A stretch of 22,162 nt of DNA from the IMG/VR virus record IMGVR_UViG_3300020171_000370, positions 1 through 22,162 of that record. One strand, given 5' to 3'. The stretch comes from a virus. Each line of letters opens with the position of its first letter. Position 1 is the stretch's first letter. Position numbers and translations under genes: made by a program. The notes under the pieces were generated by a model. The model made no database searches, had not been told where the DNA came from, and saw only the letters and a program-made list of their open reading frames with translations. Below, one piece after another: positions 1-11,937 of the stretch.

Positions 1-165
1 TTGGCGCAAGGTTTGTTTCTGCCTTGCGTGCTCTGGCTGGACGACCTGCGCTCTGCTGGACACTTCTCTCAGGCGATTGGCGTCTTTGCCCTACTCGAAC
101 TGCTTTACATGGTAGATGCTTGCTTATTTCTGGTAGTTTTCAATAAGGAGAGAAATGACAAGTAG
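1..165 (+). CDS. C-terminal end of an unidentified upstream gene (partial)
   Basis: This frame is open from the left edge to TAG at 163-165 and gives 54 residues of a longer protein. The visible part is hydrophobic and Leu-rich, ending in MVDACLFLVVFNKERNDK. I recognise no family. The other two forward frames are also open for 115-146 bases, so openness alone does not pick the frame. What does is a second copy of the segment after the next gene (592-633): it encodes VDAxLFLxVFNK in the same frame, and five of its codons differ only synonymously, which is the mark of a translated sequence. The stop lies 11 bases inside the HNH gene. The first 60 bases are 60% G+C by hand count, clearly higher than the following gene. 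The function is unknown. Confidence 0.45.
   Translation: MAQGLFLPCVLWLDDLRSAGHFSQAIGVFALLELLYMVDACLFLVVFNKERNDK
111..147 (+). repeat. Direct repeat, left copy, flanking the HNH gene
   Basis: GGTAGATGCT at 111-120 recurs exactly at 591-600. Homology continues imperfectly for about 27 more bases, ending TTCAATAAG here and TTTAATAAG at 619-627. The two copies bracket the HNH gene and probably mark its insertion boundaries. Confidence 0.6.
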
Positions 166-595
166 ACACTATCATTACGATAAAGAGTATAGCCACCAAT
201 ATTATTTAGACCATAGGCAATACTACTTAGATGATGCCAAAGAACGTTACGAGTCCAGGCGAAGCGGAGATACAAAAAATAGGGTAGAAAGTTTAAAGAA
301 ATGGAGAGAAGATAATCCAGGGAAAACTCTATGGCAACGCTGTACCCAAAAAAGGAAAAGTGATGTATTCAGTCACTATTGTCTAGAGGGTATTATAAAA
401 TGTGCCCATTGTGGTATTACAGATATAGATGTCCTTTGTTTAGACCATGTCAATGATAATGGGGCAAATGAGAGAAAGTTGGCAGGATTAGGCTCTTGTT
501 TTTACCAATGGATTAAAAGAAATAATTATCCCGTAGGCTATCAAGTTCTTTGTGCTAATTGTAATTTAAAGAAGCAAATCAAAAAGAATGGGTAG
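155..595 (+). CDS. HNH homing-type endonuclease
   Basis: This 146-residue protein is a probable free-standing HNH nuclease that makes double-strand breaks or nicks in DNA. Visible motifs are a zinc-binding CxxC at residues 83-86 (CAHC), the catalytic Asp-His at 97-98 (LDHVND), and a second CxxC at 133-136 inside LCANCNLKK, with the Asn and Lys typical of the HNH beta-beta-alpha-metal fold. The first 80 residues are basic and Tyr-rich, with an imperfect YYLD repeat, and could bind DNA. AAGGAGAG at 146-152 sets the start. Two lines I counted are about 33-35% G+C, lower than the flanking genes. HNH genes often sit beside terminase genes in phages, where some assist packaging; the flanking duplication here favours a homing element instead. 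Confidence 0.85.
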   Translation: MTSRHYHYDKEYSHQYYLDHRQYYLDDAKERYESRRSGDTKNRVESLKKWREDNPGKTLWQRCTQKRKSDVFSHYCLEGIIKCAHCGITDIDVLCLDHVNDNGANERKLAGLGSCFYQWIKRNNYPVGYQVLCANCNLKKQIKKNG

Positions 596-633
596 ATGCT
601 ATATTGTTCTTAAGGGTCTTTAATAAGTCGTAA
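592..633 (+). pseudogene. Displaced duplicate of the upstream gene's 3' end
   Basis: Directly after the HNH stop, a frame encodes VDAILFLRVFNKS and then stops (TAA 631-633). It matches the end of the upstream gene (VDACLFLVVFNK, 112-147) at 10 of 12 residues. GGTAGATGCT is identical at 111-120 and 591-600, and five of the later codons differ only synonymously. It has no start codon or ribosome site, so it is most likely the original gene end left behind after the HNH gene inserted. The spacing between copies is 480 bases, a multiple of three. Confidence 0.5.
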
Positions 634-655
634 CCACTACAGGTTGTGGTACGAC
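627..655. other. Strong imperfect inverted repeat upstream of the small terminase
   Basis: GTCGT-A-ACCAC at 627-637 pairs with GTGGTACGAC at 646-655. This gives a 10-bp stem with one bulged A and the 8-base loop TACAGGTT. No T-run follows, so it is not a normal intrinsic terminator. It lies just before the terminase genes and covers a possible GTG start at 646. It could be an RNA structure controlling terminase translation or a DNA site such as part of a packaging signal; the sequence does not decide. Confidence 0.5.
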
Positions 656-663
656 CAACCAAA

Positions 664-740
664 AACACTAGGGGTAGTATGGTAGAGGTTAATCAAATAA
701 AAATAGAAACCAAATTGAATAAGAGCGGCAACACTAGGGG
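664..740 (+). repeat. 11-base direct repeat inside the small terminase gene
   Basis: AACACTAGGGG occurs at 664-674 and 730-740, 66 bases apart and in the same frame, so both encode NTRG. Each is followed by an in-frame ATG (679 and 742). It makes the true start uncertain and suggests a small local duplication. Confidence 0.5.
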
Positions 741-1038
741 AATGAGTCCTAACAGTCGTGCGAATCTACGGAATGATGCATCCCCCGGGCGTCCGCATAA
801 GGCTGATTGTCTGCTTGACTGCATCAAAGAGGAATTAGCAAAACTATCACCAAACGGGATAAGTACCAATGAGCAGTTGGTAGCGGCTGCATTGGTAAGC
901 AAGGCAACACGAGGAGATACTAAGGCGACGGAGTTAATGTTATCATACTTACATGCTAGACCCAGTCAAGGTATTGACTTGGGGAGTAAAACCGATAACC
1001 CCTTGCGGATACTTTATGAGTTGGTAGATGGTGGCTGA
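679..1038 (+). CDS. Putative terminase small subunit / DUF5681-like protein
   Basis: The gene ends 11 bases inside the large terminase gene, the usual place for the DNA-recognition subunit of the packaging motor. The protein (119 residues from ATG 679) has a basic Gly/Asn/Arg-rich start with GNTRGMSPNSRANLR and PGRPHK, resembling the N-termini of DUF5681-type small phage proteins. A helical part follows (CIKEELAKL, STNEQLVAAAL, KATELMLSYL) that could be the oligomerising core. I prefer ATG 679 because AGGGG lies at 670-674. GTG 646 in the same frame has only a poor AGG two bases upstream and sits in a hairpin; ATG 742 has AGGGG only one base away. The call rests mostly on position and general character. 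Confidence 0.55.
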   Translation: MVEVNQIKIETKLNKSGNTRGMSPNSRANLRNDASPGRPHKADCLLDCIKEELAKLSPNGISTNEQLVAAALVSKATRGDTKATELMLSYLHARPSQGIDLGSKTDNPLRILYELVDGG

Positions 1039-2266
1039 ACTAAAAGTTAAGGTTACGCCGGTCTTCGACAAGTTATATCGCACAGTACAGGGGCTTACAG
1101 GGCTATCTACAATCGTTGAGGTAGGTGGTGCTGGTAGTTCAAAGAGTCATAGTATAGCACAACTGCTAATACAGCTTCTTACAGAGCATACAGGGCTTCG
1201 TATCGGTGTAGGGCGTAAGACGTTCCCTTCTCATCGCACAAGTGGCATGGCGTTAATTATAGGGCTACTCAAAGAGTACGGCATCTATTCGGAGAGAGAA
1301 CACAACAAGACTGAGAACTCTTACGAGCACAATGGGAACTATATGCTATTCTTCTCGTTGGGTGAAGGGGAATCAGGACGTGAGAAAATCAAGTCAGCTA
1401 ACTTCAACATCATCTGGGACGAAGAGGCAACCGAGTTTGAGTTAGCAGACTACAGGCAGCAGATGTTGAGGTTAAGGCATCCGGCACCGGTGGGGATGCA
1501 CAACTTTATGATACTGTCCCATAACCCCATTGATGAAATGCACTGGATAAAAACGGAACTGATTGATAAGGACAAGTCCGTTATAGTACACCACAGCACG
1601 TACAAGGACAATGCCTTTTGTCCAAAGGACTATGCTAAACTACTTGAGGACTTGCAGAATCAAGACCCTAATTACTACCGGATATATGTCTTAGGTGAAT
1701 GGGGCAGATTAGAGAACGTTATCTACTCCAACTGGCAGATAGCGGAGTTACCCGACAAGTCTAAATGGTCTGCCTGGTGCTATGGTCAGGACTACGGGTT
1801 TACGAACCCTGCTGCATTGCTCAAGGTGGTAATATCACAAGGCAAGCTCTATTGGGATGAGTGTTTATACCAGTCTGGACTTACCAATGCAGACATCATA
1901 GAGCGTATGACACATGAAGATAAAGCTGATGTCTATGCTGATTCAGCCGAACCAGACAGGATTGAAGAAATACACCGGGCAGGATGGAACATATACCCTG
2001 CAAATAAAGACGTGAAGATGGGTATTGATGTATGTAAGAGACAAACAATCTATATCACTCCCAGAAGTGTAAACACAATCAAAGAGGTTAAGGGTTATGC
2101 CCGGAAGAAAGACAAGAATGGTGTAGTACTGGAAGAGCCGATTAAGTTCAATGACCATGCGGTAGATGCCGGCAGGTATGGCACGTTAGGGATAACAGAG
2201 AGATTCGGGTTTGCCACATCTGCAAGTGGTAACAAGCCTCGCTCAAAACACTCTTTCAGGTTATAG
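1028..2266 (+). CDS. terL: Phage terminase large subunit (PBSX/Terminase_3 type)
   Basis: This is the ATPase-nuclease motor that cuts concatemeric phage DNA and pumps it into the prohead through the portal. The 412 residues are a normal family length. The ATPase half has Walker A GGAGSSKS (33-40), Walker B IIWDEE with D131 and E132, and an ILSHNP coupling motif. The C-terminal RNase-H-like nuclease half shows its three acidic positions: D255 (YGQDYGF), D305 (VYADSAEPD) and D380 (HAVDAGRYG). The start overlaps the preceding gene by 11 bases with no clear ribosome site, so translational coupling is likely. The overall sequence style matches the PBSX family. Nothing looks truncated or mutated. 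Confidence 0.96.
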   Translation: MVAELKVKVTPVFDKLYRTVQGLTGLSTIVEVGGAGSSKSHSIAQLLIQLLTEHTGLRIGVGRKTFPSHRTSGMALIIGLLKEYGIYSEREHNKTENSYEHNGNYMLFFSLGEGESGREKIKSANFNIIWDEEATEFELADYRQQMLRLRHPAPVGMHNFMILSHNPIDEMHWIKTELIDKDKSVIVHHSTYKDNAFCPKDYAKLLEDLQNQDPNYYRIYVLGEWGRLENVIYSNWQIAELPDKSKWSAWCYGQDYGFTNPAALLKVVISQGKLYWDECLYQSGLTNADIIERMTHEDKADVYADSAEPDRIEEIHRAGWNIYPANKDVKMGIDVCKRQTIYITPRSVNTIKEVKGYARKKDKNGVVLEEPIKFNDHAVDAGRYGTLGITERFGFATSASGNKPRSKHSFRL

Positions 2267-2274
2267 GAGAACGA

Positions 2275-3942
2275 ATGGAAACTTATTATGAGTTAGTTAA
2301 GAATGACGCTGAGGAGAGAGACGCTCTATTCAAGCGAATGGATGCCGATGTAAAGTTACGCAATCTCGAAGCGTATGTTATGAGAGACGCAAACAAGGCA
2401 TTGATTCATGGTGTAATCAATGTAACACTCAATAAGCCAAAAGTCTTAGCTACTCATGTTATAGCGGCAATAGGTAATGTTATCGAGCAGATAATAGTCG
2501 AGACTGAAGACAAGAAGATGGATACCGACTACATCAAGGACTTCCAGAGACTTGCCTTCGCTGCGGCAGATGCCAGATTACAGTTACAAGGGAGGTATGA
2601 CTTAAATCCCTATACAGACGAGCAAACTTGTATGAGAGGGGGAGCAGTAGCCAGGTGTTTATTCCAGTTAGTAGACGGAAAACTTACCACTGATATTACA
2701 CCCTGGGATTACAGGTACACGAACTATGCAATAGGAGTAGAGGGGTTAAAGTGGGCTTCTTTCGGTTACAAGTTCAATAGGAAAAAGGCAGACATAGAGT
2801 CTGAGGCATGGGCGAAAGATAACAAGTTTGTTATTATCACTGGTAAAGAGGCGGAGGTTGTAGACGTATGGGATACCGACCACAACGAGATATGGCTTGC
2901 CGGTCAAAAGGTATACGAGCAAGAACACAACTTCAAGGATGTAATGGGTGAACCTTATGTCCCTGTGGTTATCAGGACTGTATCGGTTGGGTCAATGCTT
3001 AGCGATGCCATTGCAGAGCGGAACGAGTCTATTTATTTTCTTATCAGGGAAGCCGTACCTGAGTTAAACAGGTTAGTCAGTATTTTACAGACTCTTAACT
3101 TCCAGAGTATCAAACGTGCTGCCCAGTATGCCAGTAAAGAAGGGACAAATGCTGAACCGCCAGAGTATGAAGACGCATTAGCTCCGGGGTCAATCACCTC
3201 GGTTGATATAGGTGGGGGGATAGTACCTGTTGATTTAGGGGATGCTACAAGGGCTGCGACAATGGCATTAAACATTATGAACAGGAACATGGATGAAGGC
3301 GGGTTATCGGCTACTGAGTTAGGGATACTAGGTACTCCGCCAGCGTCTGGAATAGCGTTGATTCAGGCAAAAGAGGGGAAGGAGATTATCTACATTCCCA
3401 GACTAAAGACTAAGGCAGCAATGAAGCAGGGATTAGCGCAGATGTTTACCAACCAGGTAATACAGATAGGTGGTAGTGTAGAGATAGGAACTCCAGGGCA
3501 TCAAAGGAGTTTCGATACTGGCAAATTAAGGGGGCAATATGAGATAAGTTACGGATACACAGTTAAATCTTTATCCAGTGAAGCGGGTTTAGCCTCACTA
3601 TCGGCTGCATTAGGTAATTTAGTACCTGATAGGGCAAAGAGGCGTGAGATAATGCAGAGGGAAGACCCCGATGGCGATGAAAGATGGTTAAACTGGGAAG
3701 AGGCAGGAAGACTCAGTCCGTTAATCAAGTTACGCAGGATAGTAAACGACCTGATAGAGTTGGACGAGGATGAAGAGGCTAAACTAATAACCGATGAGGC
3801 TGGTGTTAGATTAGAGCAATTACTAGGTGGTACGGTAGAAGGGGCGAAACCTGAAACACCGCAAGAACCGAAGCAGATGGTTAACTTATGGGGTGGAGGT
3901 CAAGGTAGACAGACAAGGCAACCAACTGAGGAACAGGAATGA
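2275..3942 (+). CDS. Portal protein
   Basis: The portal is the dodecameric ring at one head vertex through which DNA enters and leaves. At 555 residues it has a typical length and lies directly after terL. Its ribosome site, AGGAGA at 2265-2270, overlaps the terL stop. Visible family-like features are a mixed alpha/beta N-terminal half ending in a segment around VWDTDHNEIWLAGQKVY and PYVPVVIRTVSVG, long helices in the stem/crown region (IREAVPELNRLVSILQTLNF), the segment LGILGTPPASGIALIQAKEG, and a charged C-terminal tail (LIELDEDEEAKLITDEAG, then a Gln-rich end). No motif is diagnostic alone. The call rests on size, gene order and overall sequence style, and I am fairly sure of it. Confidence 0.85.
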   Translation: METYYELVKNDAEERDALFKRMDADVKLRNLEAYVMRDANKALIHGVINVTLNKPKVLATHVIAAIGNVIEQIIVETEDKKMDTDYIKDFQRLAFAAADARLQLQGRYDLNPYTDEQTCMRGGAVARCLFQLVDGKLTTDITPWDYRYTNYAIGVEGLKWASFGYKFNRKKADIESEAWAKDNKFVIITGKEAEVVDVWDTDHNEIWLAGQKVYEQEHNFKDVMGEPYVPVVIRTVSVGSMLSDAIAERNESIYFLIREAVPELNRLVSILQTLNFQSIKRAAQYASKEGTNAEPPEYEDALAPGSITSVDIGGGIVPVDLGDATRAATMALNIMNRNMDEGGLSATELGILGTPPASGIALIQAKEGKEIIYIPRLKTKAAMKQGLAQMFTNQVIQIGGSVEIGTPGHQRSFDTGKLRGQYEISYGYTVKSLSSEAGLASLSAALGNLVPDRAKRREIMQREDPDGDERWLNWEEAGRLSPLIKLRRIVNDLIELDEDEEAKLITDEAGVRLEQLLGGTVEGAKPETPQEPKQMVNLWGGGQGRQTRQPTEEQE

Positions 3943-4046
3943 GAAGAATACTCTACAAGAGAATACCCGAATGGACTAAGATAGCAGTCTTTTTAATATG
4001 GGTGTTCTTAATACTTCTATGGTTTAGCGGAATCTTTGGATTTTAG
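3939..4046 (+). CDS. 35-residue single-membrane-segment protein
   Basis: The ATG at 3939 overlaps the portal stop as ATGA, with GAGG at 3928-3931 as ribosome site. The peptide has a basic start (MRRILYKRIPEWTK) and then one continuous hydrophobic stretch, IAVFLIWVFLILLWF, to the end, so it would be a small inner-membrane protein with a short positive cytoplasmic tail. I recognise no family. Possible roles are a lysis-related or superinfection-exclusion peptide, but neither is shown. The coupled start and good spacing support real translation. Confidence 0.6.
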   Translation: MRRILYKRIPEWTKIAVFLIWVFLILLWFSGIFGF

Positions 4047-4057
4047 GGAGGAAGACA

Positions 4058-4204
4058 ATGCCCAGGTTTACATTAAAAGACTTCGACAAGAGAATGGAGG
4101 AGGTAAGGGGACAGATAAAGCAGATTAAATCACCTAACCCGGTAGGTGAAACTCCCATGCAGCGATTACAGAGGATGGCTAAGAAACAGTTACCCGTAGT
4201 ATAG
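4058..4204 (+). CDS. Small basic protein of unknown function
   Basis: This 48-residue protein begins MPRFTLKDFDKRMEEVRGQI. It is helical and basic, with a middle SPNPVGETP turn and a second helix MQRLQRMAKKQL. The ribosome site AGGGAGGA (4045-4052) is strong. The TAG at 4202-4204 overlaps the ribosome site of the next gene, so it is read in the same operon between portal and the giant internal protein. I do not recognise a family; a small virion or assembly factor is possible from context only. Confidence 0.65.
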   Translation: MPRFTLKDFDKRMEEVRGQIKQIKSPNPVGETPMQRLQRMAKKQLPVV

Positions 4205-4212
4205 GAGATTAG

Positions 4213-7200
4213 ATGACTTTACCGTCTTTATGGACTAAACCCAAGAAGGGGACAACTATTCTCAGACCACCTGAAGCCAAGAATCTGGGGTATGACTTAG
4301 ACGAAGGTTGGTCTCTTAAAATATCTGAGGACGAAGCTAAGAGTTTCGTATCCCCTGACAATATTGAGTTCACCAATCTAAAATACAATGACTTGGGCGA
4401 ACTAGACAATTACGAAGTTATAACTCCCGAAGGTAAGATACTATCCAAGTTCGAGTATGCCGAACTATCGGCGCAACCAGATATTACTAAACCCTATGAG
4501 CCAGATTACGGATTCCAGACGGTAGATGACTTCTACACCAGTTTCAAAAAGTTAACTGGTAAGGACGTAGAATCAGTCACAGAGGCGGAAATTCCTACCT
4601 TGCTACAATCAGTCATAAGTCAAGGTAGGAACTATGATACAGATAGAGTGGTAAGGGGTATATACCCCGATAAAACAGAGGAACAAATAAGTTCTCTATT
4701 CCCACAACATGTAGTACCCCAAGTTGAACCCACCACTACTGGTGGTATAAAATCTCTTGGTGAGTTCAGGTTTGACTACTTTAAGGAGAAGGGTTACACC
4801 GACCTCCCTAGTTATCTTGGGGGTACTTTCAATAGGGCTAAGTACGAAGGTGTATCTGGTGGTGAGGCAATAATACGACAGGCAGATATTCACTTAGCTG
4901 AAGCTACCAAAGCATATCGGCAAGCGACTGGGAAAACTATTATCGGTGTTGGCGCACAAACCATTGGGGAAATGGCACAAACTGGTGTTGATATAGCTGA
5001 AGTATTAGGTGGGAGTTTGGCTAGATTGCCTGGTAACATAGGTGCTTCTGTGTTACAGGCGTTACAACCTAGCGGCGCTAGTGTTGTAGATAGGGATTGG
5101 GCTGATAAGTTTATTAGTGCTGTTCAGGCGGGCAATATTAAAGCGGCTAATAAAGTTGCCGAAAAATATAAGAATACATGGTTGCCAATCAAACTGACTG
5201 ACTTGGCACAAGTTTCTGAGAACATAGGTTATTCCTTAACTTCAATGGGTGTTGGTCTTGCCGTAGGTGTACCCACTGCTTTAATCCCCTTGCCTGGAGC
5301 TAGGATTGCTGCTTATACGTTGGGAACGGCTGCGTCAGGAGCGATAGCTTACAATATGACACATTATCAGATAACGCAGCAATATCTTGAATTTAAGGAT
5401 AGCGAAAAAAGAGCAAAAACGGGGCGGGGATTAACCCTTGCAGAAGAAAACCAACTTAAAAAGGATTTTGAGGGCAAGGCAATGGCGTATGGTCTATGGG
5501 AAGCAGTACCAGAAGCTATAAGCAATCTTGGTTTTGTAAGTATCCTAACAGCACCATTGACTAAGGTGGCTGGTTCGAGTATCGCCGTTGGAATCATCAA
5601 GAAATTGGTTGGTTTGTATGGTGAAGAATTACTTACCGAGACTATAACCCAGAAGGGGCAATCTGACATTGAAGTAGAAGCAGGGTTAAGGGAAGGCAGG
5701 ATAAACTGGATTGAGGCATTCAAGGAAATAGCAAAGCAGACGTGGCTTTTAACAACTATAATGGCTGGTGCTGGACAGACAATCATATCAAGTAAAGTTG
5801 GTATTGAGAAAGCAATCGCATCGCTCAAAACCGAGATTGGCGAAAGTCATCCGCTATACAGAACCTTTGAAGATAAAGTTAAGCAAGGTCTGACAGTAGT
5901 AGCAGAAGAATTTTACAAGGCAGGTCAAAAGACTGGTGCAATTAAAGAAACACAGTTTGCTGAAGGTAAGATAATACCCGAAAAGGGTATCCAAGTACCT
6001 ACTCCATCCTTAGTTAAAGATTGGGATAAGATTTCCACTTGGGATAAAGGGAGTTTAGCCGAGCGTGCAGGACTGCCTAGAAAATTAGCTTCCAATACCC
6101 TGGCTCAATTTCAGGTGGAAAACCCAGTTGAACTTGCTAAGTTACAGGCGCAATATGCCAAAGAACAGGCAGTACCCGAAAAGGCAGTACCACAGGCGGG
6201 GAAAGAGGCTATGACCCCTGCCCAAAAAGATGTTATATTATACGCAGATGAACTGAAAGACTTAGAAAGTGAACGTAAAGTACTGGTTAAACAATCGGAG
6301 AAAGTAGATAAAGAATTTGGTGTTAATTCTAAGGAATCTGATACAGTAGATGCTCAGATAACTGAGATTCAGAGGAAGAAAAAAATAGCAGGAATAAATC
6401 TTCTTAAAGCAGAACGGGCACGGCGAGCAGAGCAAGTTTCCCCCACTGCACCCATTCAACCAGTTCAGGGTAAACCTGTTACCCCAGAGGTTACCAGTGA
6501 AAATGTATTAAACGTTGTTAAAAGAGAGTTAATCACAGGGAGAAATACTGGTGAATTTGTATATCACGGGGGGACTTCTGGTATAAAGGGTAATATCCTT
6601 AAAGGTGATGCCGTTCCAGAGTTGCGTGAGGCAATGCGATATGCAGAACCTTCCGTAAGTAGAAAAGCTGGTTCTCTCTATGTAATACGAAAAGCCGACT
6701 GGTTAGCAGCTGAAGGTAAAATGGGAGGAGTCAAACCAGTATTAGAGATACCAATAAAGAACCTACGAACTACCTTTCCTCCCCTTAGTGAGTTTGCTAG
6801 TGGGTGGGACAATATCCCAATATCTGATAGGGTAAAACTTGCTGGGATGGCAAAACTAGAAAGTAAAATAGGTTCAAAAAGCTGGGCGGATATTACACTT
6901 AAAGAACGGTTAGCATTGTTTAATGCCCTTGCGAGTAGGGAAATAGAAATAATCCCAGCAATCCCCAAAGCCGAAATCACTCCCCCAGCCGTAACACCTG
7001 CTCAGAAAGTGGAGCAAGTAACACCAGAGGAAATTCAATGGAGATTTCCAACTGCTGATGATTTTTACTTTTGGGCTAGAAAGAACAATCTAAGCGAGCA
7101 ACAAAGTAACCAACTATGGGATAAAGCCAAAGAAGCAAAGAAAATATTGCAAGGTAAAAAACCACCACAATTAGTAACCCCTCCCACCCCTGTGGTAGAA

Positions 7201-10200
7201 ACTACTGCACAGGCAGAAGTGCCACCTGCACCACCGACTACTGAGGAATTGGAGACAACTAAAGAGTTAGAAAAAATTATAGCCAATCAAGAGAAGTTTG
7301 TAGCTGAATATGCTGAATCGAAGGGGCGAGAACCACCTCCACCTCTGCCTACTGCACCAACCGTAACATCAGAGTTACCACCTGATATGCCTAATGCCCA
7401 AGAGGTAGCTAACCATATTTCGTTTGAACCTGATAAGGTAAGTCTCAAAGAACGATTCCTTCGTGGTTATCATAGGGCAATGTCCCAGTGGATTGATAAA
7501 CTATACCCGATTGATAAGTTTGTTGCTCTAGCCAAGAAACTCGGAATAGACATTTCATTAGAGGAAAACCCCTATATTCAAGCTCGTATGCTTGAAGGTG
7601 TTACTAGTAAAGCCACGTCGTTTATTGAAGACGGCACATTTGGTCGCAAGTTCTGGAAGATGGAGAAAGGGAAGGCGGTTCCCAATTATAAGGGAGTTAG
7701 TCTTACTTCGATACTTGAAGCGGTCAAAGACCCGCAAACTTGGCGTGATTTCAGCACCTACCTGACATCCCTACGTGCTAAGGAACTAAACAATTTAGGT
7801 ATAGAGACAGGTATAACAGTTGATGTCGCAAATAAAGCCATAACAGAATTAGAAACTAAATATCCGAACTTCCCTGAACTATCAGAAAAGATACAAAAAT
7901 ATCAGTCCGACCTTCTTGATTATATTCAAGAGTCGGGTTTAATCAGTCCTGAATTACGAAAAACACTAGACACCAAATATATGTCCTATGTACCCTTCTA
8001 CCGTGTTCTTGAGGAACTACAAGGTAAGGGATATATGGGCAAAAAGATGGTTGATATTGCATCCCCGATTAAACGTATTAAGGGTTCTGAGAGAGATATA
8101 ATAAATCCACTCGAAAGTATAGTAAAGAATACATACGCCTTTATAAGTGCTGCCGATAGAAACCAAATAGGCGTAATGATGGCACGACTGGTAAATGCCA
8201 ATCCTGAGTTACAGGGTATGTTTGAACCGATAAAAACGCCTATGGCGAAGGTAGCCAATGTTACCGCCAAAGAATTGGGCATTGATGTTACAGGATTGTC
8301 CGATGCGGACGCCGAAGGTGTGTTTGATATCTTCCGCCCGTCCATGTTCACAAAAGAGAATGTTGCGACAGTTCTGATTGACGGTAAAAAGCAGTTCTTC
8401 AAGGTAGACCCAGACCTTAATACTGCACTCACAGCAATGGATACCGCCAATATGGGAATACTCTGGAAGATACTCAGTACACCCGCCAAATGGTTGCGTG
8501 CTGGTGCAACTTTGAGTCCGGACTTTGCCATACGCAATCCCTTACGTGATGCCATGTCTGCAATGATATATTCCAATCATGGGTTCATACCTGGTGTGGA
8601 TTTTCTAAGGGGTGTTGCCAGTATTGTACGGAAAGATGCCACCTATCGGCTATACAAAATGTCTGGTGCTGAACACGCTATGTTGGTCAGTCTCGATAGA
8701 GATTATATGGGCAAAACATTCAAGGAAGTAGTTGAGGGCAAGAAGTTCACTGATTATGTGAAACATCCACTTCAGTTACTTCAGATACTTAGTGAACTGG
8801 GTGAAAAGGCAACCCGACTTGGAGAATTTGCAAAGGGGATTAAACAGGGAGTAACGCCCCTGGCGGCGGGATTTGATTCAAGGGAAGTCACATTGGACTT
8901 TGCTAAGGCGGGTACTCAGGCAAAAGCGGTCAATCAGATTATAGCCTTCTTTAACTCTAACATTCGGGGTTCCGACAAGATGTTTTCTGCCTTTAAGGAA
9001 CATCCTATAAGAACGTCATTAAAGGTACTTGCCTTTATAACTCTACCGTCTATTCTACTTTGGACTGTTAATCACGATGACCCACGCTGGAAGGAAATCC
9101 CTCAGTGGCAGAAGGATTTATTCTGGATTGTTATGACCGACAAGCATATCTGGCGTATTCCCAAACCTTTTGAACTCGGTATTCTTTTCGGGTCAGCACC
9201 AGAGAGATTACTTGATTATCTTAGTACTAAAGACCCCAAAATGATAAGGGAGTTTGCATCTAACTTATTTGAATCGGGTATGCCAGGTTGGTTGCCAACT
9301 GGTATTGAACCAATTATTGAGAATATCACCAATCACAGTTTCTTTCGTAGTATCCCCGTTGTCTCTCCCAGTATGGTTGACCTACCGCCAGAATTACAAT
9401 ACACAGAGTACACATCTGAGATAGCGAAGGCAATGGGGAAATTTCTGAAGTATTCTCCGATGAAAATTGATAACATCATTCAAGGCTGGACTGGTGGGTT
9501 AGGGCGATATGCCACAGAAGCGATTGATAAAGTCCTGCGAGGTACGGGTGTTGTTGCTTCTAAGATTGAACCATCTGCAACACTAGCCGATTTACCTGTG
9601 GTTAAGGCATTTGTCGTAAGGAATCCCATTGGTGGTAGTAGTGAATCGGTGAGCAAGTTCTACGATGAACTTGACTCATATACCGCACTAGAGAAATCGC
9701 TCAAGGGGTATATTGCTGATAAAAATAGTACCGAGTTTGAAAAATTGAAAGCCCAACACCCTGAATTACTCTTTGCTTATGATAACGAGACCGATACATA
9801 CTATTCGGCATCTGCAAGGTATTTAAGGCAAGTAACCAGCGAATTATCAGACATCCGTAAGTTGCAGGATAAAGTCTATAAATCTACAACTATGACACCT
9901 GACCAGAAGCGGGAACTGATAGACTCTCTTGATGTAATAAAGACAGACCTCGCTAAGAGGGCATTGGAACTGTTACGCAACCCATCTAATGAGGTTGGTA
10001 TATTAGAAGTCACTGTAAACGAGATAGAGGGCAAATTGGGGGTTTCTACGGGTTCTCCTCTTAACGAAGATGTTATCAAAATGACTGATATTGCTCCCGA
10101 ACTAGCACAGGCAAAAGGCGAAAGCCCACTTAAGAAGTTACTGGAGAAAAACAATAAGATACTCGCTGATATTACCACCTTACCCAATACTCCACTTTAT

Positions 10201-11937
10201 CAGATAGACCGTGCCATAACGAAAGCGGGACTAACACGAAGGCAGAATGAATTGCTTGACCGATATGATACTGCCATAGACAAAAAGGCATTTCTGGAAG
10301 AATATCCCGAACTAAAAGAGAATCCGAAGGTAAAGTGGCTAACCGATAATCCTGAATCCAATGCGATACTAGCCTTGTGGGGTAATTCTAAATTGCTTAC
10401 CCAGAAGGCATACGACATTGCGATTGGGTTAATAGAGAGTGGAGATATACCCAATGATGCGCTTTCAGAAAGAGTCCTACCACCAGAGAATTTAGCCAAA
10501 CCATATTTTGAACTTATGGTTGCTAAAGAAAAATGGGGTGATAGTAGTTGGGAAGTCAAACTGATATTAGCTAAGAATAAAGGGTTAGTAGAATGGAATC
10601 CCGCATGGACTTTACCCGATACCCCGATTGCCTCCCTGGAAATAAAGACTCAACCGAAATATAGAGAACTGTACGAGAAGATAAACAATTTAAGTGATAG
10701 GGAATCACCTGACTATATTCCAGATGAAAAGAAAAGGGCGGAGGCAGTTAAGAATCTCAAAACTCCTGCATATATTGACGATACCAGACGAATCGAGGCT
10801 ATCGAGAAGGGTACTGATAAAGTTCCCACTCCCGATGCCATCATCAAGAATCATGTTGACTATGGGAAGATACAGGATACAGAGGGTATTGGTTCTTCCA
10901 GTGCTGAGTCCATGCTTTATCGTGTTGACAATCCTGAATATGATAAGTTTAGGACTGACGAAACTATCTGGGAAGATAATGCACTTCAACCGATAGACGA
11001 ATCCAGAATCCCCATCTGGCGTATTGACGTTAAATATACCAAAGAGGACGAGGAATACAATGCAATTCAAAATGACTTGCCCAAAGAGCAAGCCAGACTA
11101 CGGGATGAGTACATGGTTTCCCATGAGGAATACCGCAAGGATAATAGACGTAGGGATGCCCTTGACCTGACAAATCCCAATACTGGCGTAACGTTTGATA
11201 GAAACCAGGTGGAGAACTATGTTTCTTATTACGAACTTCCCACTAAGGGCAAACGTCAAGAACGATTCCTTGTAGAGAATACGGATTTTACTAATGCGAT
11301 GGTGGCGATGGGTAAACTAGCCAATCTACCCACTAAAGTACCTGCCGTGCAGTATGACGACATCTACGACAAGTATGCGGATAAGTTTGACCTACTTGAT
11401 AACTATGCAGACAGACTATCCGATGATTTTATAGAAAATGAAGATGCAAGGGAACTTGCTCGTAAAACCCTACGATTTACCAATGACAGGTATAATGAGT
11501 TTGGTTTAGCGGAACTTAAACGGGATGCTTATGGATTACTTTTGCCTGAAAACCAAATTGATAACTATGTGGGATACAAAGTGGCGGTAAACGAAAAAGG
11601 TACTTATGAAGATGACTGGTATTTGATAGACCACATAGACCTTTACCAGACTCTACTTTCAATGGGTATATTCAAAGAGCGCAAGGATTTTACTAAAGTA
11701 CCTACAAGAAAAGTATATGACAAGTATTTACTCTATCAGAACGAAGCATCCACAAAAAGAAGGCAGGACTTCAGGTTTAATAATCCTGATTTGGAAGCGT
11801 GGTTACTTCTAACTAAAAAGGTTACAGTCCCAATCACCGAACAAAAGCGTATGGAGCAGGAAACTCCTACTGGTAAGTTCCAGATAGAAATGGAGAGGTT
11901 ACGAGCCGAGGGAGAGGAACTACATAGAATTAAGTAG
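4213..11937 (+). CDS. Giant polyvalent internal virion protein with LPD38-like core
   Basis: At 2574 residues this is far larger than the MuF or protease usually found between portal and scaffold. In order: an N-terminal region (1-235); a helical Gly/Ala-rich hydrophobic block (about 240-525) with WEAVPEAISNLGFVSIL and YGEELLTETITQKGQ; a charged coiled coil (about 670-740); Pro-rich linkers; a possible ADP-ribosyltransferase-like segment (770-916); another Pro-rich linker (about 980-1065); and a long core (1070-1760) resembling Large Polyvalent Protein Domain 38, with YMSYVPFYR, FAIRNPLRD (1438-1446), AFFNSNIRGSDK and RIPKPFELG (1648-1656). A helical tail ends in two related units of about 118 residues. 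There is no signal peptide. LPD38-type proteins are known from phages and mobile elements. I infer packaging in the head and ejection with DNA, perhaps for host takeover or channel formation. AGGAGA at 4203-4208 sets the start. No frameshift is seen. Confidence 0.75.
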   Translation: MTLPSLWTKPKKGTTILRPPEAKNLGYDLDEGWSLKISEDEAKSFVSPDNIEFTNLKYNDLGELDNYEVITPEGKILSKFEYAELSAQPDITKPYEPDYGFQTVDDFYTSFKKLTGKDVESVTEAEIPTLLQSVISQGRNYDTDRVVRGIYPDKTEEQISSLFPQHVVPQVEPTTTGGIKSLGEFRFDYFKEKGYTDLPSYLGGTFNRAKYEGVSGGEAIIRQADIHLAEATKAYRQATGKTIIGVGAQTIGEMAQTGVDIAEVLGGSLARLPGNIGASVLQALQPSGASVVDRDWADKFISAVQAGNIKAANKVAEKYKNTWLPIKLTDLAQVSENIGYSLTSMGVGLAVGVPTALIPLPGARIAAYTLGTAASGAIAYNMTHYQITQQYLEFKDSEKRAKTGRGLTLAEENQLKKDFEGKAMAYGLWEAVPEAISNLGFVSILTAPLTKVAGSSIAVGIIKKLVGLYGEELLTETITQKGQSDIEVEAGLREGRINWIEAFKEIAKQTWLLTTIMAGAGQTIISSKVGIEKAIASLKTEIGESHPLYRTFEDKVKQGLTVVAEEFYKAGQKTGAIKETQFAEGKIIPEKGIQVPTPSLVKDWDKISTWDKGSLAERAGLPRKLASNTLAQFQVENPVELAKLQAQYAKEQAVPEKAVPQAGKEAMTPAQKDVILYADELKDLESERKVLVKQSEKVDKEFGVNSKESDTVDAQITEIQRKKKIAGINLLKAERARRAEQVSPTAPIQPVQGKPVTPEVTSENVLNVVKRELITGRNTGEFVYHGGTSGIKGNILKGDAVPELREAMRYAEPSVSRKAGSLYVIRKADWLAAEGKMGGVKPVLEIPIKNLRTTFPPLSEFASGWDNIPISDRVKLAGMAKLESKIGSKSWADITLKERLALFNALASREIEIIPAIPKAEITPPAVTPAQKVEQVTPEEIQWRFPTADDFYFWARKNNLSEQQSNQLWDKAKEAKKILQGKKPPQLVTPPTPVVETTAQAEVPPAPPTTEELETTKELEKIIANQEKFVAEYAESKGREPPPPLPTAPTVTSELPPDMPNAQEVANHISFEPDKVSLKERFLRGYHRAMSQWIDKLYPIDKFVALAKKLGIDISLEENPYIQARMLEGVTSKATSFIEDGTFGRKFWKMEKGKAVPNYKGVSLTSILEAVKDPQTWRDFSTYLTSLRAKELNNLGIETGITVDVANKAITELETKYPNFPELSEKIQKYQSDLLDYIQESGLISPELRKTLDTKYMSYVPFYRVLEELQGKGYMGKKMVDIASPIKRIKGSERDIINPLESIVKNTYAFISAADRNQIGVMMARLVNANPELQGMFEPIKTPMAKVANVTAKELGIDVTGLSDADAEGVFDIFRPSMFTKENVATVLIDGKKQFFKVDPDLNTALTAMDTANMGILWKILSTPAKWLRAGATLSPDFAIRNPLRDAMSAMIYSNHGFIPGVDFLRGVASIVRKDATYRLYKMSGAEHAMLVSLDRDYMGKTFKEVVEGKKFTDYVKHPLQLLQILSELGEKATRLGEFAKGIKQGVTPLAAGFDSREVTLDFAKAGTQAKAVNQIIAFFNSNIRGSDKMFSAFKEHPIRTSLKVLAFITLPSILLWTVNHDDPRWKEIPQWQKDLFWIVMTDKHIWRIPKPFELGILFGSAPERLLDYLSTKDPKMIREFASNLFESGMPGWLPTGIEPIIENITNHSFFRSIPVVSPSMVDLPPELQYTEYTSEIAKAMGKFLKYSPMKIDNIIQGWTGGLGRYATEAIDKVLRGTGVVASKIEPSATLADLPVVKAFVVRNPIGGSSESVSKFYDELDSYTALEKSLKGYIADKNSTEFEKLKAQHPELLFAYDNETDTYYSASARYLRQVTSELSDIRKLQDKVYKSTTMTPDQKRELIDSLDVIKTDLAKRALELLRNPSNEVGILEVTVNEIEGKLGVSTGSPLNEDVIKMTDIAPELAQAKGESPLKKLLEKNNKILADITTLPNTPLYQIDRAITKAGLTRRQNELLDRYDTAIDKKAFLEEYPELKENPKVKWLTDNPESNAILALWGNSKLLTQKAYDIAIGLIESGDIPNDALSERVLPPENLAKPYFELMVAKEKWGDSSWEVKLILAKNKGLVEWNPAWTLPDTPIASLEIKTQPKYRELYEKINNLSDRESPDYIPDEKKRAEAVKNLKTPAYIDDTRRIEAIEKGTDKVPTPDAIIKNHVDYGKIQDTEGIGSSSAESMLYRVDNPEYDKFRTDETIWEDNALQPIDESRIPIWRIDVKYTKEDEEYNAIQNDLPKEQARLRDEYMVSHEEYRKDNRRRDALDLTNPNTGVTFDRNQVENYVSYYELPTKGKRQERFLVENTDFTNAMVAMGKLANLPTKVPAVQYDDIYDKYADKFDLLDNYADRLSDDFIENEDARELARKTLRFTNDRYNEFGLAELKRDAYGLLLPENQIDNYVGYKVAVNEKGTYEDDWYLIDHIDLYQTLLSMGIFKERKDFTKVPTRKVYDKYLLYQNEASTKRRQDFRFNNPDLEAWLLLTKKVTVPITEQKRMEQETPTGKFQIEMERLRAEGEELHRIK

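Follow-up and report, generated by a model that had tools for sequence, protein, structure and literature searches.

The left edge of a tailed-phage genome fragment raises the question of why the end of one small gene is encoded twice, once on each side of an HNH endonuclease gene. The fragment, a 22,162-base stretch of a virus record that we refer to as the window, carries terminase genes together with capsid and further structural genes. At 112–147 (VDACLFLVVFNK) and again at 592–627 (VDAILFLRVFNK), it encodes the peptide VDA-LFL-VFNK, both times in frame 1 and at an offset of exactly 480 bases, and the two copies flank the HNH gene at 155–595. Codon-by-codon comparison of the 12 codons showed five identical pairs, five synonymous pairs (TTA/TTG, TTT/TTC, CTG/TTA, GTT/GTC, and TTC/TTT), and two non-synonymous pairs (TGC/ATA and GTA/AGG). 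The left edge of both copies is formed by a 10-base sequence, GGTAGATGCT, which is identical at 111–120 and 591–600 and is the only 10-mer common to 1–165 and 561–660. A preliminary description of the locus had paired the same two segments in the same frame, with 10 of 12 matching residues, the same five synonymous pairs, and ten identical bases at the left edge, and our comparison confirmed each of these points. The repeat is short (12 codons); the BLOSUM62 score of the pair was 45, as against 25 for the runner-up 12-mer across the six frames of the window, a maximum of 29 for shuffled queries (4000 sites), and a background maximum of 41 for a detector constrained to gene ends and starts.

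We then defined the parts of the locus, all of which lie on the plus strand. The upstream gene (1–165; hereafter the host gene) encodes a small membrane-type protein (LAQGLFLPCVLWLDDLRSAGHFSQAIGVFALLELLYMVDACLFLVVFNKERNDK), as judged from its open reading frame, alignments, and five homologues in viral contigs; it is truncated by the left contig edge, and its start lies beyond that edge. Its native body, delimited by the reading frame and the alignments, spans 1–111, and the left copy of GGTAGATGCT at 111–120 marks the left edge of the putative insert. The proximal copy of the end (VDACLFLVVFNKERNDK followed by a stop) occupies 112–165, with 11 bases of overlap between its 3' terminus and the HNH gene. 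It is four codons longer than the distal copy because it overlaps both the Shine-Dalgarno sequence of the HNH gene (AAGGAG, 145–150, read from the sequence) and its ATG (155). The HNH gene (155–595) encodes 146 amino acids, and its stop codon TAG (593–595) falls inside the right copy of GGTAGATGCT (591–600), which marks the right edge of the insert; the stop would therefore be supplied by the target sequence. The distal copy, VDAILFLRVFNKS followed by a stop, extends over 592–633, and no ATG, GTG, or TTG is present between it and the preceding in-frame stop. The preliminary description had regarded this copy as a 14-codon relic, which was borne out and refined to 13 codons plus TAA. Downstream are a probable terminase small subunit gene (646–1038), so assigned from its position and a weak DUF5681 match below the cut-off, and the gene for the terminase large subunit (TerL; Terminase_3; 1028–2266). 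Farther along the window, a 2574-amino-acid reading frame (4213–11937) between portal-like and capsid genes contains an LPD38 large-polyvalent-protein domain in its second half.

To determine which copy is native, we compared the host gene with its homologues, which came from searches of viral contigs in which the upstream peptide served as the initial query and alignments followed. Five homologues were obtained (L003, L004, L007, L008, and L009), and in all five a single intact end aligned with VDA-LFL-VF and was joined directly to the conserved gene body. These single ends were VDSLLFLKIFRKD in L004, IDSLLFLAIFGDKDSQGGKKG in L003, GDAILFLWIFKSD in L007, VDAILFLQVFRSK in L008, and LDALLFLLIFGRRKGE in L009, each followed by a stop. 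An HNH gene directly after the host-gene end was absent from 5/5 relatives, as was a second copy of the end within the next 3 kb. The arrangement looked for in homing endonucleases, namely an insertion in a target of which relatives possess cassette-free alleles, was found here with five such relatives. The preliminary description had proposed that an HNH element inserted near the 3' end of the gene and left the old end as a relic, and had named relatives with an intact C-terminus and no HNH gene as its check. The five relatives support this proposal; the two observations that it had named as contrary, namely both copies occurring without the HNH gene and an upstream frame that is not conserved, were not seen among them. 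In L004, the host-gene homologue is located just upstream of terminase genes, and the TerL encoded downstream of its empty site is 42% identical to that of the window; the small-terminase candidates of the window and L004 showed no similarity, so the host gene and TerL are the basis of the synteny with L004. No host-gene homologue was found in bacterial or archaeal genomes or in named phages.

The native ends of L004, L007, and L008 comprise 13 codons, the same length as the distal copy. Moreover, the distal copy has TTG TTC TTA (TTGTTCTTA) in common with L004 and L007, and TTT CTG occurs in both the proximal copy and L008; the end is thus represented by two lineages. Because the distal copy matches the native length and the codons of L004 and L007, these data support its assignment as the relic of the old native end (592–633) and that of the proximal copy as a substitute (112–165) brought by the insert. 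In DNA closeness, measured over 27 bases only, the relic was nearer to L004, L007, L003, and L009 and the substitute nearer to L008. The nearest cassette-free relatives are approximately 60–64% identical to the window in the upstream DNA and are too distant for identity of relic and empty allele at the nucleotide level. Overall, we consider that the 480-base segment between the two copies of GGTAGATGCT is probably an inserted cassette, consisting of an HNH gene and a diverged substitute gene end, that likely spread by homing (probability of about 0.78).

The protein encoded by the presumed cassette matched the HNH endonuclease family phrog_2255 (E = 9.5e-6). The core C-x2-C ... DH ... C-x2-C-N, which contains the HNH (beta-beta-alpha-metal) residues, was intact, and the protein has the invariant residues of a 37-member alignment. 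An AlphaFold model (mean pLDDT, 89.5) displayed the strand-strand-helix order of a beta-beta-alpha fold. No Pfam or NCBIfam HNH model matched the protein, and no significant sequence or fold match was obtained in the PDB, the best weak fold match being the T5 endonuclease SciA. The family assignment is based on the PHROG match and the alignment. Close relatives of this HNH protein were not found in viral contigs, and no second phage bearing the window's own cassette was found.

We surveyed HNH-protein relatives from viral contigs, genomes, and named phages (191 loci, 159 of them non-redundant) by translating the DNA on either side of the HNH gene and comparing the two sides locus by locus without constraint. 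The constrained detector was confined to upstream-gene ends and downstream-gene starts, with 1500 mismatched pairs as background. The survey was limited to relatives of one HNH type, and the window case and the others all derive from uncultivated viral contigs. The architecture of the window recurs in at least seven other phage loci: among the 159 non-redundant loci, there were seven clear cases and one probable case in addition to the window, a rate of 8 to 9 of 159 that applies to this sample only and counts the window, from which the search arose.

Two of the clear cases and the probable one are located at gene ends. In L089 (LSQAVDIDVYWRCAQELW / LDQAVDVDVYWRAAEALW), both copies continue to a stop; in L178 (KTLGQLVFPESEESEW / KTLGQLVFPESDEGEW), the relic is in frame as the C-terminus of the HNH protein; and L124, with an uncorrected p of 0.008 in 120 tests, was retained only as a probable case. 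The other five are mirror images at gene starts, in which the HNH gene is preceded by the relic start and followed by the gene body, to which the substitute start is fused. They comprise L027 and L045 in terminase large subunit genes, L149, L065, and a DNA methyltransferase gene represented by two contigs that are 98.5% identical (L137/L138). The HNH genes of L027 and L045 are 46% identical and occupy the same PR-DYQ site of terminases that are only 30% identical, which points to transfer between distant phages. In two of these loci, the old gene piece has become part of the HNH reading frame: in L178 (2917–3342), the old gene end forms the HNH C-terminus, and in L027 (1928–2590), the old terminase start, which overlaps the stop of the upstream gene, begins the HNH frame. 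Named phages yielded no DNA relatives of window positions 1–8000, L027, L045, or L089.

Other loci gave negative or ambiguous results. The HNH relatives in named phages (L010–L016) showed no end duplication. One of them, Stenotrophomonas phage ANB28 (L011), carries its HNH gene (1342–1857) between nrdA and nrdB with a 10-base overlap with the nrdA end and without a duplicated end. In another, Streptomyces phage Galactica (L013), genes 102 and 104, which flank HNH gene 103, have a 27-residue stretch in common (APGHDARLKGFL..., from 916 and 1961), which we read as paralogy and not as end duplication. The HNH genes closest to that of L045 (L098–L102 and L115) had neither a duplicated end nor an adjoining in-frame terminase PR-x-YQ start. 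Candidates were rejected for low complexity (L133), for a repeat within the HNH frame (L118), as tRNA-like (L074 and one stretch of L114), as compositional and off frame (L062 and L057), as a non-coding promoter region (L055/L143), or as being within background (L142, L098, L115, and L195). The L055 stretch (approximately 65 and 509; same contig as L143) is 66 bases long and 70% identical, with a TATA-like motif and a start region, and it stands before the HNH gene and before the next gene, as if the HNH unit had brought a diverged copy of the downstream gene's promoter. In L107, a double-HNH gene is bracketed by a non-coding, promoter-like 27-base direct repeat (AAGAATTGACGTAAAATTTTTCATACA; 26/27 identical) whose copies lie approximately 42 bases upstream of the HNH start and 103 bases downstream of the stop. 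A 26-base stretch in L114 (TGCACCAGCGGCGTGGCGA...; 23/26 identical) occurs 55 bases upstream of the HNH start and again 5 bases beyond the stop; it may represent a more recent target duplication, but we recognised no coding end in it.

The recurrence bears on a passive origin of the arrangement, in which two phages recombined at a 10-base match and a foreign gene end entered together with the HNH gene that happened to neighbor it; the HNH gene would not be the driver, and no mobile cassette would exist. Mosaicism is a feature of phage genomes, and the places where phages have exchanged DNA are reported to have nuclease genes at their boundaries (PMC10448857); the 10-base identity at the left edge is the expected trace of a join at microhomology. 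However, one geometry recurs at both gene ends and gene starts: relic and substitute immediately flank the HNH gene, with an overlap or almost no gap. This recurrence and the occupation of the same site in two distant terminases are expected of homing and not of random mosaicism. We consider a passive join unlikely, although it is the strongest of the alternatives.

The divergence of the paired copies bears on a second alternative, that HNH insertion or a staggered break doubled the gene end locally and that the copies diverged later. Such an event would account for the direct repeat on both sides and for the exact 10-base match at the edges, but a functionless copy should then gain amino-acid changes freely. 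Pooled over nine pairs, 30 amino-acid differences were observed versus 77.8 expected under neutral relic decay, with the same number of base changes placed at random (4000 simulations; minimum, 65); the pairs were picked by protein similarity, which favors pairs with few changes, so this test is somewhat lenient and its bias partly uncorrected. For the window alone, two changes were observed versus 7.1 expected. Both copies were under selection at the protein level while they diverged. In addition, the two copies show a systematic difference in composition, the shift being toward that of the HNH gene. At codon third positions, G/C in the relic and A/T in the substitute were paired at 49 codons and the reverse at 20 (two-sided sign test, p = 0.0006), and the contrast persisted without the window and L124 (37 vs 17; p = 0.009). 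This test is independent of how the pairs were found. The signal of the window itself is weak (4 vs 3 codons; log ratio, 1.4). Summed over cases, composition favored a substitute resembling the HNH gene and a relic resembling the gene body by 29 log units. In L089, third-position GC was 0.85 in the body, 0.81 in the relic, 0.56 in the substitute, and 0.38 in the HNH gene; the corresponding values in L065 were 0.62, 0.64, 0.17, and 0.30. Furthermore, the coding copies that flank HNH genes are roughly 65–80% identical in DNA, and none of the 158 HNH genes tested had a near-identical, young coding duplication beside it. Local duplication is accordingly quite improbable in our estimation. Since amino-acid changes are few and the third-position GC of the substitute is HNH-like, the HNH gene and the substitute end are best read as one imported unit. 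The preliminary description had spoken of a diverged substitute end, and the synonymous-rich divergence and HNH-like codon composition in the survey agree with that wording.

An assembly chimera of two metagenome strains was also considered, given that the window and the other cases all come from uncultivated viral contigs. Joins on 10 bases are not normal for assemblers, the right junction has nothing in common with the end of the HNH gene, and a single geometry appeared in independent contigs, including the two 98.5%-identical contigs of L137/L138; this explanation is very improbable. The least credible alternative is that the HNH gene resides within a self-splicing intron or intein, the host gene being read across the insert after splicing: HNH genes are often located in group I introns or inteins, and a splice at GGTAGATGCT would likewise restore the native end, but no intron family matched within 1–1200 (apart from a weak, meaningless mir-252 match), a group I intron was rejected in view of the lack of an intron RNA core match around the reading frame and of just 34 insert bases outside it, the HNH gene lies in a different frame from the host gene with its own Shine-Dalgarno sequence and start, and a coding substitute end would be needless.

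The preferred reading, a homing cassette that carries a substitute gene end, suggests the following sequence of events. The cassette would have entered the small membrane-protein gene that closely precedes the terminase genes, at a point 13 codons ahead of its stop, in an empty site that would have read as the sequence up to GGTAGATGCT and then ATATTGTTCTTA.... The brought-in end would fuse in frame with the gene body and supply a stop, so that the host protein would retain its C-terminus, and the hybrid host gene presumably works. The old end would have been moved 480 bases downstream, where it would remain as a relic without a start codon. The junction site of cassette-free alleles may be cut or nicked by the HNH enzyme, and a cassette-bearing genome would then serve as the repair template, so that the HNH gene and the substitute end are copied together. 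Through the synonymous recoding of the substitute, the target would not be recreated and little recombination with the relic would occur; as the substitute differs at most synonymous sites, the cassette would be neither cut nor looped out. Cleavage, homing, and immunity by recoding are predictions that we draw from the sequence arrangement.

Similar designs have been described outside phages. Mobile endonuclease ORFs (mORFs) with foreign C-termini are found in fungal mitochondria, in atp6 of Allomyces macrogynus and in atp6, atp9, cox2, and nad3 of Glomus sp. (PMC3630166). As in the window, the mORF insert comprises a foreign end fused in frame with the host gene and an endonuclease ORF, the native end is left downstream, and the two ends differ largely at synonymous sites; the native end of mORF-bearing genes resembles that of relatives (PMC3630166). 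The mORFs encode LAGLIDADG or GIY-YIG proteins, are mitochondrial, and have reported expression and endonuclease mobility, whereas the window element is 480 bases long in all and encodes an HNH protein in a tailed-phage contig. Moreover, the phage cassettes occur at either gene end, whereas the fungal mORFs bring foreign C-termini. Tremella introns contain diverged duplicated parts of the host gene and were proposed to exchange those parts between species (PMC7315562); these elements are predicted introns of approximately 2 kb, one of them confirmed by cDNA, whereas the phage cassettes consist of free-standing genes. In Escherichia coli icd, prophage e14 supplies a substitute gene end and has 11-base direct repeats, with 10 synonymous and two non-synonymous differences (PMC4759930), but e14 depends on site-specific prophage recombination, whereas the window insert encodes the HNH protein only, with no integrase or recombinase.

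Among free-standing phage homing endonucleases, the T4 seg/mob genes are described in the available text of PMC2988022 as small HNH or GIY-YIG genes that spread by cutting neighboring genes; they are intergenic or gene-splitting, and a replacement gene end is not among the passages of that text describing them. A text search of the available portions of three phage works (PMC2988022, PMC10448857, and PMC12724721), with subscription papers mostly outside its scope, returned no passage on a replacement gene end. The design is known from fungal mitochondria and is not new to biology; as far as we found in the literature searched, it has not been described for phages.

Free-standing homing endonucleases are thought to limit harm mainly by occupying intergenic positions or intron and intein sites, or by splitting genes into halves that remain functional. 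A unit equipped with a recoded gene end of its own would be a further way to avoid harm, and would explain why phage genomes contain orphan gene fragments and genes with hybrid ends. The cut site is predicted from sequence alone to lie at the junction, and the predictions on cleavage, immunity, and co-transfer are testable. For annotation, an HNH gene adjoining a terminase or other gene may have altered the end of that gene. More tentatively, and with somewhat less than an even chance, phages may hold a general class of rescue-carrying homing cassettes, each combining an HNH gene with a substitute, diverged at synonymous sites, for the end or start of the gene that is cut. If such a class exists, a conserved gene could be targeted without being destroyed and the cassette would be safe from cutting or looping out; these cassettes would be nature's equivalent of the engineered recoded-rescue homing drive and would allow distant phages to exchange gene ends.
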